Shown: in pieces, positions 6,697 through 9,514 of the stretch
How positions within the stretch are numbered: position 1 is the stretch's first letter
How the letters are laid out: every line of letters begins with the position of its first letter
Virus record (IMG/VR): IMGVR_UViG_3300042906_000838
Coordinates: 1-26,017 of that record
Length of the DNA stretch: 26,017 nt
Strand: one strand, 5' to 3'
Source of the DNA: a virus
Program-made: the position numbers and the translations under genes
Notes under the pieces: model-generated
Database searches by the model: none
The model's input: only the letters and a program-made list of their open reading frames with translations
Told to the model about the DNA's origin: nothing

Positions 6697-6865
6697 CCGT
6701 GATTCCCTCCAGGAAAGAGTTAACGCGGGCATCAAGCGCCGCCCGCACAGTGCGCAACTCAGAGAACAACAGCGGGATGGCCCGCGACAGAATCAGCGGG
6801 AGGTTGTCCAACGTGCTGTACACGATGGCCCGCTCCAACTCGTCAACCTGCTGGTCAGTTAGCAA
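6374..6865 (-). CDS. Hypothetical protein, largely overlapping the next gene
   Basis: The first ~55 residues look genuine: MLTDQQVDELERAIV, then IPLLFSELRTVRAALDARV, an amphipathic helix pattern. The start is TTG at 6865, supported by a strong AAGGAGG SD 6 nt upstream inside the ERF gene's last codons. After about residue 57 the chain becomes Gly/Arg/Pro-rich, as expected of a shadow of the overlapping helix-turn-helix gene in the +1 frame. Either the gene really ends late, or a frameshift (natural, programmed or an assembly error) near 6700 joins the two frames into one protein. I favour translation from 6865 but am unsure of the true C-terminus. Confidence 0.45.
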   Translation of the reverse strand: MLTDQQVDELERAIVYSTLDNLPLILSRAIPLLFSELRTVRAALDARVNSFLEGITDDCRSDEPASAGVDPEGLRVWNDPAGSGAEVPLGNEARPEERAGGDDSSGGRPVQGGTQRRGTRRKKGRDQGEVDAGAGKAEVGGPLPVEAGVPGILPIEGSPRTRG

Positions 6866-7526
6866 CTGCTACCTCCTTCTTGGCTGCCTTCTCTGGCAGC
6901 GGGTACTCGTCCTTGAACTTCTTGGCGTCCTCCTCCTTGAGCCGCCCGTCCTTGACTGCGGCGTCGATCTTTCCCAGCACGGACTCCAGCTTCTGCCGGT
7001 TGCCCTTCACCAACTCCAACTGGCCCTTCACCTTCTCCAGCAGCGCGATCTCCTCCTTGCTGCGCTCGACCTGCTCGACGGCAGCCTGCTGCTCCTGGGC
7101 CTCGTCGCCTTCCTCCCACCCGCCGGCCATGGCCTTGAGCAAGGTCTTCTTGGCGTAGGTGGTGGCGATCTCGAACGACTGGCTGTCACCGCGAATGCCG
7201 AGGTTGTCGGCAATGACGTCGCGGATCGGAGCCGTGGAAGAAACCCACTGGCCGCTCTCCCCGTGCAGGAGCATGCCCATCATCACGAACGTGTCGCCCT
7301 GCCTTCCTTGCAGGGGCATGAACACGATCCCGTTCTTATGGAGCGCCGGATACAGGGCGTCACAGATGTCGGTCCAAGTCGAGTAGCGATAGCGGTGATC
7401 CCGCATCTCCATGACGCCACTCTTCTTGATGGCCTTGAACTCCATCTGCGCCTTGCACAGCGCCTTCACGATCTCCGCAATCTCGGGTGAACTACTGCAC
7501 CCAGGCAGTTGATGGTCGATAACCAT
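6855..7526 (-). CDS. ERF-family single-strand annealing protein
   Basis: A 223-aa ERF-superfamily recombinase, the single-strand annealing partner of a phage exonuclease. Recognisable blocks are EIVKALCKAQMEFK, YRYSTWTDICDALYPAL, GIVFMPLQ, the MLLHGESGQWVSS strand pair, and DSQSFEIATTYAKKTLL near 130-145. The C-terminal third is a lysine/glutamate-rich coiled segment ending in a Lys-rich tail, as is usual for the variable C-termini of this family. The ATG at 7526 was chosen over an upstream start at 7556 because GGAGGAG lies about 4 nt before it. It overlaps the 3' end of the exonuclease gene by 35 bp, and the exonuclease-ERF pair is a classic phage recombination unit. Confidence 0.88.
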   Translation of the reverse strand: MVIDHQLPGCSSSPEIAEIVKALCKAQMEFKAIKKSGVMEMRDHRYRYSTWTDICDALYPALHKNGIVFMPLQGRQGDTFVMMGMLLHGESGQWVSSTAPIRDVIADNLGIRGDSQSFEIATTYAKKTLLKAMAGGWEEGDEAQEQQAAVEQVERSKEEIALLEKVKGQLELVKGNRQKLESVLGKIDAAVKDGRLKEEDAKKFKDEYPLPEKAAKKEVAVAN

Positions 7527-8547
7527 TCCGCTCCTCCATGTACTTCTCGGGAACAAACAACTCAGTCACCTGCCCGGAATCAGCGGGCAGCCAGTAATCC
7601 AGTTCGATCCGCGACTGGATCTCGTCCAGCGTCCGCCGCCACTGCTTGCGGGCCCGTGCCACCAAACGCGCAGGCAGGGTCACTGCATGGCAGGCGTAGG
7701 GCGGGACGGTGCTGGTCACCAAGAACACGAACCGATCAACGTCGAACCCAGCCGCCTGGACCCCGGCGAGGTAATGCACCTGCTGCATCGCGTAGCCGTA
7801 GTCCACGACGCTCTTCCAGAACGTCTCCAGCGGGGCCTGCTCCTTGGTGGTCTTGATGTCCCACAGGCAGGCGTCCGTCATCGCGTCGGGGCGGCACTTC
7901 AGGGGCAGGCCGGTCGCCTCGTCCCGCCACCGCACCGATGCTTCCCGGTGGGTGGTGGAGGCCGAGAGTTCCCCGAAGATGGGGTTGGCCAGGATGGAGG
8001 CGAACTGCGACCGATAGGACGCAATCTCGTCGCCCTTGAGCAGGATGGCGTCTGGCCGGTTCGCCAGAGTGTCCTGCTCCCATTCGTCGGTGGCTTTGAC
8101 CCGCCGGCCACCAGACCCCAAGGCGGACTCAGGGATCTCTATTACCCGAGACCACCAGGCCTTCTCCCCTTGCTCTGCCCATTCATGGACAAGCGTACCC
8201 CTACTCAGGGCGGGGTGGGCGAGCCTACTGTTGTCTGTGCAGGCAATGTGCCGGGCACAGAACACCTGCGGGCCTCGGGTGACGAGGTCCCACAGTTGGC
8301 TCTTCGAGAACCAACCTTTGTCGGCGTGGTAAGCGCCGATTGTTTCGGTTAGGGAGAAAGTAGCAGCGGCCGGACTTGAACCGGCGACACCCGGCTTATG
8401 AAGCCGGTGGCCATTAGAACCGACAACCCCGTCATAGGTGGACCCCACAGTGGGGCACGCTTGGTCCGGGGACCCCAAGAGAGGGGTGTTGGTTTCTAAA
8501 CGCTGTGATATTTCTCCCTTTCCGTTTTGGGCGGAAAGGGATGACAT
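7492..8547 (-). CDS. PD-(D/E)XK exonuclease, RecE/DUF3799-like
   Basis: A nuclease whose conserved region begins near residue 70 (IGAYHADKGWFSKSQLW), as in DUF3799/RecE-type exonucleases. Catalytic motifs are visible: Glu202 in REASVRW, CRPD (Asp221), D230-I-K232 and the QxxxY helix motif Gln255...Tyr259. It probably resects double-stranded ends for the following ERF protein. No ATG, GTG or TTG lies between the tRNA half (8361-8408) and the conserved domain. The only in-frame starts are upstream: GTG 8448, TTG 8478, or ATG 8547, which has AAGGAGG 11 nt upstream. Translation would thus run through the attP core. The next internal start, GTG 8265, would delete the conserved N-terminus. Function is strong; the start is unresolved. 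Confidence 0.72.
   Translation of the reverse strand: MSSLSAQNGKGEISQRLETNTPLLGSPDQACPTVGSTYDGVVGSNGHRLHKPGVAGSSPAAATFSLTETIGAYHADKGWFSKSQLWDLVTRGPQVFCARHIACTDNSRLAHPALSRGTLVHEWAEQGEKAWWSRVIEIPESALGSGGRRVKATDEWEQDTLANRPDAILLKGDEIASYRSQFASILANPIFGELSASTTHREASVRWRDEATGLPLKCRPDAMTDACLWDIKTTKEQAPLETFWKSVVDYGYAMQQVHYLAGVQAAGFDVDRFVFLVTSTVPPYACHAVTLPARLVARARKQWRRTLDEIQSRIELDYWLPADSGQVTELFVPEKYMEERNGYRPSTAWVQ
8361..8408 (-). other. tRNA-Met(CAT) 3' half, probable attP core
   Basis: Read on the minus strand, this is the 3' half of a tRNA. The anticodon arm is CCGGC-TTCATAA-GCCGG (8407-8391, anticodon CAT), the variable loop GTGTC, and the T arm GCCGG-TTCAAGT-CCGGC (8385-8369). The acceptor 3' strand CGCTGCT and an A discriminator end at 8361, with no encoded CCA. 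The complementary 5' acceptor strand (AGCAGCG) and a proper D arm are missing upstream, so it is not a complete tRNA. Because a tyrosine integrase lies directly beside it, the simplest reading is the attP core matching a host tRNA-Met gene. A degenerate phage tRNA is the alternative. Confidence 0.65.
8441..8492. repeat. Imperfect direct repeats with internal dyads
   Basis: Two related units lie at 8441-8464 and 8471-8492. Each runs GACCCC, a short A/G-rich spacer, GGGG, then TTGG. The first contains the near-perfect palindrome CCCCAC-A-GTGGGG at 8443-8455; GGTCC/GGACC (8463-8467 and 8470-8474) forms a further dyad between the units. They sit between the proposed attP core and the integrase start. 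They could be integrase arm-type or excisionase sites, or operators for the divergent promoters. The role is inferred from position and symmetry only. Confidence 0.5.
8515..8541. promoter_or_regulatory. Perfect 10-bp hairpin covering the integrase RBS
   Basis: TCCCTTTCCG (8515-8524) pairs perfectly with CGGAAAGGGA (8532-8541) around a 7-nt loop. The right arm contains the purine-rich Shine-Dalgarno-like GGAAAGGG about 5 nt before the integrase ATG at 8546. In a plus-strand transcript the stem would hide the ribosome-binding site, suggesting translational control of the integrase; as duplex DNA it could equally be an operator dyad. There is no U-tract, so it is not a typical intrinsic terminator. 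Confidence 0.55.
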
Positions 8548-9514
8548 GATCGAAATCGCCTCCTTGTACTGCGATGAGCGAGCGGTGACGGCCGACTACG
8601 AGACGGCCCTGCACCGCGTAGCCCGCTCCATGCGGGCCGCTGGCATCACTCCAATGACGCTGAAAGACTCCTTGGTGAACCGCTGGCTGGCCTCGCTCGG
8701 CCAGTCACCCACCACGCGGGCCAACTACCGACGAATGGCCTTGACGTTGTGGCGTCACGCCTGCGATCTCGGGCTGGCGGCGGATTATCCCAGGCGCGTC
8801 GTCAAAGTCAAGAATCGCCCGAAACCCGCTGTGGCGTGGACGATGGCTGAGTTGTCGGCCCTGATCGCTGCGACCCGCTCGCTGACGTACTCCTTTAAGC
8901 GGAGCCGCTGCCCGGCGGCGGTGTTCTACGAGGCGTTCGTCCGGGTCGGCTTCGAGACGGGCCTCCGGTTCTCGGATCTGCTCAACCTGCGGTGCGAGCA
9001 GTTGCGGGGCGAGCGGCTGTATGTCGTGCCGAACAAGACGGGCGAGCAGGTTCCGAAGCGCCTGTCGCAGCCGTGCCTGGACGTTCTCACGAAACTAAGT
9101 GTCCTAGGAGGGGGCCGAACTTTCTTCCGCTGGGCCATCGCAAAGAAGCAGTGCCGGGAGCATTTCAAGGCCCTGTGCAAGCAGGCCGGCATGTCGGGCA
9201 CCCCGCGCTGGCTGAGGCGCTCCGGGGCCACTCATTGCGAGATTGCCCAGCCTGGGTCAGCCGGGCGGTTTCTCGGGCACCTGAGCCCCGGGCTGGCCTA
9301 CCGCTTCTATGTGGACCGCACCTTGCTCGATGAGCAGTGCCCGTCTCCGCCGCCGATCCCTACTCAAAGTAGCTCAGCGGATCGGTCTGGCGGCTTCGCG
9401 TGCGGCGGGCAACGGGGCGTCCTTCCCGGGCCATCCGTTCCGCCGACGATTCCCGGGCCATCTGCCGGTCGAGGTCGAGCAAGTCCAGCATCATCGGGTC
9501 AACGTATGGCATAG
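8546..9514 (+). CDS. Tyrosine recombinase (phage integrase)
   Basis: A 322-aa protein and the only clear plus-strand gene. An N-terminal core-binding-like domain (about 18-85, with TTRANYRRMALTLWRHA) precedes the catalytic domain. Visible catalytic positions are Arg141 in ETGLRFSDLL, Lys164 in NKTGE, Arg224 in RWLRRSGATH, His245 in LGHLSP and a nucleophile Tyr in AYRFYVD (Tyr255 or Tyr252). The usual His of HxxR is Arg221, an uncommon but tolerated change. The ATG at 8546 was chosen because a GGAAAGGG SD precedes it, inside a hairpin. It lies beside the tRNA-Met half, as integrases do beside attP. The last ~50 residues are Pro/Ser/Gly-rich and overlap the convergent structural gene by 155 bp. 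Confidence 0.87.
   Translation: MIEIASLYCDERAVTADYETALHRVARSMRAAGITPMTLKDSLVNRWLASLGQSPTTRANYRRMALTLWRHACDLGLAADYPRRVVKVKNRPKPAVAWTMAELSALIAATRSLTYSFKRSRCPAAVFYEAFVRVGFETGLRFSDLLNLRCEQLRGERLYVVPNKTGEQVPKRLSQPCLDVLTKLSVLGGGRTFFRWAIAKKQCREHFKALCKQAGMSGTPRWLRRSGATHCEIAQPGSAGRFLGHLSPGLAYRFYVDRTLLDEQCPSPPPIPTQSSSADRSGGFACGGQRGVLPGPSVPPTIPGPSAGRGRASPASSGQRMA

Follow-up and report, generated by a model that had tools for sequence, protein, structure and literature searches.

A tRNA-Met attachment core inside the 5' part of a RecE-type exonuclease gene in Planctomycete phages: a probable integration-dependent switch

In integration-dependent immunity, described for mycobacteriophage BPs, for phages of clusters G, I, N and P, and for the MabN and MabB prophages of M. 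abscessus, the repressor gene contains attP, and integration cuts off a 3' degradation tag to yield the active form (PMC4557955, PMC9934374). Tn916 has genes that are expressed only after excision because integration parts them from their driver: its promoter is separated from the operon, a terminator is used, and an insulator guards against host read-through (PMC11658703). In the inovirus XacF1, a phage ORF for a possible regulator has attP within its coding region and is split by integration at the host dif site through XerCD, with no tRNA involved (PMC5666396).

The locus analyzed here shares elements with each of these systems and departs from each. As in integration-dependent immunity, a phage reading frame encloses the attP core, its product would be changed by integration, and the same bases act as integrase site and as codons, with a frame that differs between phages (PMC4557955, PMC9934374). 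However, the gene is a nuclease rather than a repressor, and it is the 5' end with its start codon and ribosome-binding site that integration would remove, not a C-terminal degradation tag, so that the outcome should be inactivation. As in Tn916, expression would be confined to the excised state, but whereas Tn916 parts a promoter from an operon, the start codon here is parted from its frame within one gene (PMC11658703). The split ORF recalls XacF1, whose described site differs in the ways given above (PMC5666396). In its nuclease domain, fold and ERF neighbor the exonuclease resembles E. coli RecE (exonuclease VIII) with its Erf-like annealing protein; unlike E. coli RecE, it carries a tRNA-coded N-terminal linker and an attP inside its gene. 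We found no description of an attP inside a recombination exonuclease in the open-licence papers searched.

The window, a linear virus record of 26,017 bases taken at its full length, contains a leftward gene run encoding a RecE-type exonuclease, an ERF annealing protein and a DEAD/ResIII-type helicase, with a tyrosine integrase in the opposite direction. The exonuclease (7492–8547, minus strand), defined by its ORF and homology, is a 351-aa protein and would be the product of unintegrated DNA; the start of the ERF gene (6855–7526, minus strand) overlaps its end by 35 nt. The divergent integrase (8546–9514, plus strand) was recognized by its phage integrase matches, and its start codon overlaps that of the exonuclease on the opposite strand within CATG at 8545–8548; in several relatives of the same clade, the two starts lie a few bases apart at most. 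Just before the integrase start, a perfect 10-bp inverted repeat (TCCCTTTCCG / CGGAAAGGGA) with a 7-base loop occupies 8515–8541 and spans GGAAAGG, a possible integrase Shine–Dalgarno sequence (SD). A candidate promoter-like site, TTGACT-16-GATAAT (8784–8811, minus strand), lies inside the integrase gene and is aimed at the exonuclease; it recurs in the window's clade, a conservation for which the integrase codons may account.

The exonuclease ORF is a homolog of RecE/exonuclease VIII: residues 71–330 match phrog_412 (E 7e-42), the ORF also matches Pfam DUF3799, and comparison with the RecE structure (PDB 3h4r) returned a profile E-value of 6e-28 and a Foldseek fold E-value of 7e-11. The D, D and K columns of the RecE-like PD-(D/E)XK domain are invariant in the alignment. 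In the predicted structure, residues 1–58 have a pLDDT below 50 and appear disordered, with order setting in at about residue 61; the ordered part has the RecE fold and begins directly past the tRNA-coded stretch. Both profile and predicted structure indicate that the nuclease domain of the window is complete without the leader.

That stretch corresponds to the 3' half of a tRNA gene. The initial annotation had located a 48-bp tRNA-Met 3' half (8361–8408) between the available start codons and the nuclease domain; the position holds, and the length is corrected to 49 bp, positions 8361–8409 (minus strand) being identical to the 3' half of a Planctomycetota tRNA-Met gene, the host attB. The identity runs from the anticodon stem, where it ends abruptly, to the discriminator base. 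No complete tRNA was found by ARAGORN in the 26,017-base window, as had been anticipated, and the Rfam match at 8361–8430 is marginal (29.9 bits against a cut-off of 29) and good only in its 3' half. In the exonuclease frame the core reads HRLHKPGVAGSSPAAA; an example of a core-encoded peptide is LHKPGVAGSSPAAATFSLTETIGAYHADK.

We searched viral contigs with an exact 37-bp inner core and scanned bacterial genomes with a 47-bp core pattern. The former recovered 20 viral contigs, nearly all with the core immediately 5' of a RecE-like exonuclease; no viral contig contains the whole host tRNA-Met. The latter recovered 33 bacterial contigs, nearly all labeled Planctomycetes and many lake-derived by label, 32 of which have a complete tRNA-Met at the site (the exception being L107); the exact sharing of the core with bacterial tRNA-Met genes, on which the initial annotation depended, is thereby confirmed. 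Because the core recurs upstream of the exonuclease in viruses and within tRNA-Met in bacteria, its position is not due to chance. With ARAGORN, both attB and the joined attL (host 5' half plus phage 3' half) give a tRNA-Met, and neither attP nor attR gives one. As in tyrosine-integrase phages that integrate into tRNA genes, the integrase thus adjoins an attP that matches and rebuilds a host tRNA; that it recombines attP with the tRNA-Met attB is supported indirectly, by the two natural junctions (L178 and L107) described below. One viral contig (L011, position 3136) carries the tRNA-Met core with no such exonuclease found and a weak integrase match 4.6 kb away. On the bacterial side, gttgtgcacgagacggaacaatccc... 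stands just after tRNA-Met in many different Planctomycetes genomes (L110, L112, L115, L124, L128, L135 and others).

All three in-frame start codons reported initially, ATG 8547, TTG 8478 and GTG 8448, lie upstream of the core, and reading of all three frames confirmed that no ATG, GTG or TTG occurs between the core and the YHAD motif of the domain. The likely start is ATG 8547: its SD, AAGGAGG (8559–8565, minus strand), lies within the integrase gene 11 nt before the ATG, and pairs at −11.3 kcal/mol; among the SD-backed starts in all frames up to 170 nt from the core, this ATG ranks first. The homologous exonucleases that have a tRNA at this place have SD-backed starts before the core and no ATG start after it. 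Walking upstream from the core in the exonuclease frame, one reaches an ATG before a stop in all 18 contigs tested; in the other two frames this is so in 5/18 and 3/18, and SD pairing exceeds that of background ATGs (p 1.7e-8, with related contigs treated as independent). When the start was chosen from any frame within 170 nt, which avoids picking the frame beforehand, 16 of 20 contigs had their best SD-backed start in the frame of the exonuclease. L204 is without an upstream ATG, and GAAGGA precedes an in-frame GTG there. The leaders vary in length from 25 to 154 nt, yet remain in frame. No ATG was found between core and domain motif in the contig set tested, and a scan for promoter-like sites returned almost nothing from the core to +240.

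The shared order, namely divergent integrase, exonuclease start, tRNA 3' half and exonuclease domain, is found with tRNA-Met in 20 distinct phage contigs: the window, L007, L008, L010, L012, L013, L014, L015, L016, L017, L018, L019, L022, L023, L024, L029, L039, L043, L204 and L215. This set combines core matches with relatives found through the exonuclease, and the contigs are related, so that the counts are not independent. The layout also occurs once with tRNA-Pro(CGG), identified from its arms (L196/L041), and once with tRNA-Gly(CCC), named by ARAGORN (L192), and since these targets are also used, it outlives a change of target; no host tRNA-Pro or tRNA-Gly gene matching the L196 or L192 core was found in 147 genomes of the order. 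The core is read in one frame (HRLHKPGVAGSSPAAA) in 17 of the 20 tRNA-Met phages and in another in L008, L039 and L215. Among carriers of the layout, exonuclease identity to the window falls to about 32%, an integrase homolog stands divergently beside the exonuclease start wherever the contig extends that far, the sequence at the position of the tRNA 5' half is unrelated between phages, and most contigs have the ERF ATG at the exonuclease stop or overlapping it.

Other RecE-like exonucleases have a different arrangement. In L189, L191, L201–203, L208, L210 and L211, no integrase homolog was found in the available flank and no tRNA is present there; the exonucleases of L201–203 begin with an ATG placed at the domain. 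In cyanophage KBS-S-2A and Rhodococcus phage Mbo4, too, the start of the published exonuclease is less than 60 nt away from the matched part. L190 has an integrase, no recognized tRNA, and an ATG adjoining the domain. In a variant, L206 (2860–2960), the exonuclease leader beside the integrase contains the 5' half of a tRNA-Pro rather than the 3' half, and the rebuilt tRNA would arise at the opposite junction upon integration. Finally, one genome (G236:C1, positions 541301 and 4896258; L155 and L174) holds two RecE-like exonuclease copies, neither beside a tRNA, that do not differ in the N-terminal region compared or in the DNA upstream.

When the host tRNA-Met 5' half is joined to phage sequence, an in-frame TAG stands upstream of the exonuclease in all 20 tRNA-Met phages, in the context TAG CTC AGT in one frame and GGT TAG AGC in the other. 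In 16 of these 20 joined sequences, there is no ATG, GTG or TTG before the domain motif; the remaining four retain a start with a weak SD, either a GTG inside the core (L008, L039) or a TTG before the motif (L010, L023). In the window, joining leaves as the first start a GTG that has a moderate SD and lies 22 codons beyond the YH motif, so a truncated product of the integrated exonuclease is possible.

Natural counterparts of both joined ends were found once each, the attL-type junction in one metagenome-assembled genome and the attR-type junction in another. In G198:C271 (L178), the order is host DNA, complete tRNA-Met, startless exonuclease and ERF gene, so that the rebuilt tRNA directly upstream of the exonuclease, a prediction of the initial annotation, is seen at a real host–phage junction. 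The exonuclease here has the TAG followed by 309 open codons, with the first start, a GTG, at codon 169; because its frame is intact, it does not look decayed. ERF overlaps the exonuclease end by 20 nt, and the sequence upstream of the tRNA-Met is similar to that at empty sites of related genomes; neither an integrase nor a second junction turned up in G198. Together, the joined sequences and L178 place the attP core within a reading frame that integration alters. The opposite junction, G003:C205 (L107), contains the integrase, a leader with GAGGAG and a TTG in the exonuclease frame, the core, and host DNA resembling that after other tRNA-Met genes. At positions 1600–3666 of L107, two tandem integrases of the same family lie next to the tRNA-Met core, which suggests stacked elements at one tRNA. 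The junctions themselves could conceivably be chimeric assemblies at the shared core. Lysogens were sought in genomes with a domain-only exonuclease query, since a query with tRNA-coded residues matched the host tRNA genes themselves; a scan of genome contigs for the core, a short gap and TAYCAC returned no lysogen, and G198:C271 differs from that pattern in having another T-arm and YF instead of YH.

The arrangement of the DNA, its conservation, its frame, its stop and start codons and one junction of each kind are thus matters of direct observation, and this genomic evidence is strong. We consider it quite probable that the exonuclease, and probably ERF with it, is lost on integration and regained on excision. 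In free or excised DNA, translation would begin at the start codon and ribosome-binding site beside the integrase and proceed through the leader, the tRNA 3' half, translated as a disordered linker, and the nuclease domain to give the full-length exonuclease. The integrase would exchange strands between the phage and host copies of the tRNA sequence, the crossover probably falling within the anticodon loop, and the nuclease domain (7492–8358, minus strand in the window) would come to lie directly behind a complete host tRNA-Met, with an in-frame TAG and mostly no start codon, while the leader (8410–8547, minus strand), with ATG 8547 and its ribosome-binding site, would shift to the other end of the prophage. 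With start and ribosome-binding site displaced and TAG upstream, exonuclease synthesis would therefore stop on integration and resume on excision, and would stay off in the prophage even if the host tRNA promoter reads in. We infer that no full-length exonuclease is made in the lysogen and that the arrangement is under selection. ERF synthesis would probably stop together with that of the exonuclease, a coupling made plausible by the overlap or abutment of ERF with the exonuclease stop in most contigs. The integration-dependent switch put forward in the initial annotation is thus supported, although the silencing of a whole exonuclease–ERF–helicase operon stands in part only: the exonuclease start is parted from its domain, the effect on ERF is plausible, and that on the helicase goes beyond the evidence.

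The separation of start and domain might instead be a by-product of an attP that merely lies in the gap between divergent integrase and exonuclease genes. The exonuclease would then have grown at its 5' end by chance until it met a ribosome-binding site, and its separation on integration would not be a product of selection, since the prophage is silenced by repression anyway. We regard this as unlikely, though it has points in its favor: an attP beside the integrase gene is usual, the leaders are variable in length and predicted to be disordered, and a repressor may act as well. It sits poorly with a layout that spans two frames, three tRNA species and exonuclease identities down to about 32%, with the absence of an ATG from core to domain among the contigs tested, and with the integrase-less L201–203, which retain a start at the domain. 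It is far less probable that the exonuclease starts downstream of the core, from a non-canonical codon or its own signals, and is unaffected by integration. The completeness of the window's nuclease domain without its leader, the existence of rare non-AUG starts and the GTG or TTG kept before the domain motif in four phages would fit such a start; SD-backed in-frame starts before the core in nearly all contigs, a frame open through leaders of 25–154 nt, and the almost empty promoter-like scan from the core to +240 argue against it. That the tRNA 3' half is an RNA regulatory element of the exonuclease mRNA rather than an attachment site deserves hardly any weight, for although the anticodon-arm and T-arm stems are kept and a few attP sites are recognized as a tRNA by ARAGORN or Rfam, the 49-bp identity to host tRNA DNA breaks off sharply at the anticodon stem, different phages have unrelated sequences in the 5' half, and the site adjoins the integrase and occurs at two natural junctions with host DNA.

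An integration-dependent switch thus remains the preferred reading, and we lean, with somewhat less assurance, toward a conserved class of such switches in Planctomycete phages, in which the host tRNA would supply the stop, integration would remove the start, and the exonuclease would be made only from unintegrated DNA. The arrangement would probably be of benefit by keeping harmless, until excision, a prophage gene that sits immediately behind a tRNA promoter. The core ties these uncultured phages to Planctomycetota, and the layout carries a warning for annotation, as a prophage exonuclease without a start codon need not be a pseudogene. A tRNA 3' half in frame at the 5' end of a gene offers a searchable signature for other phages. 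For the phages themselves, the arrangement would be a repressor-free way to tie nuclease expression to excision and would shield a prophage behind a tRNA gene from read-through; it would extend integration-dependent switching from a repressor to a lytic recombination gene, and from loss of a C-terminal tag to loss of a start codon.
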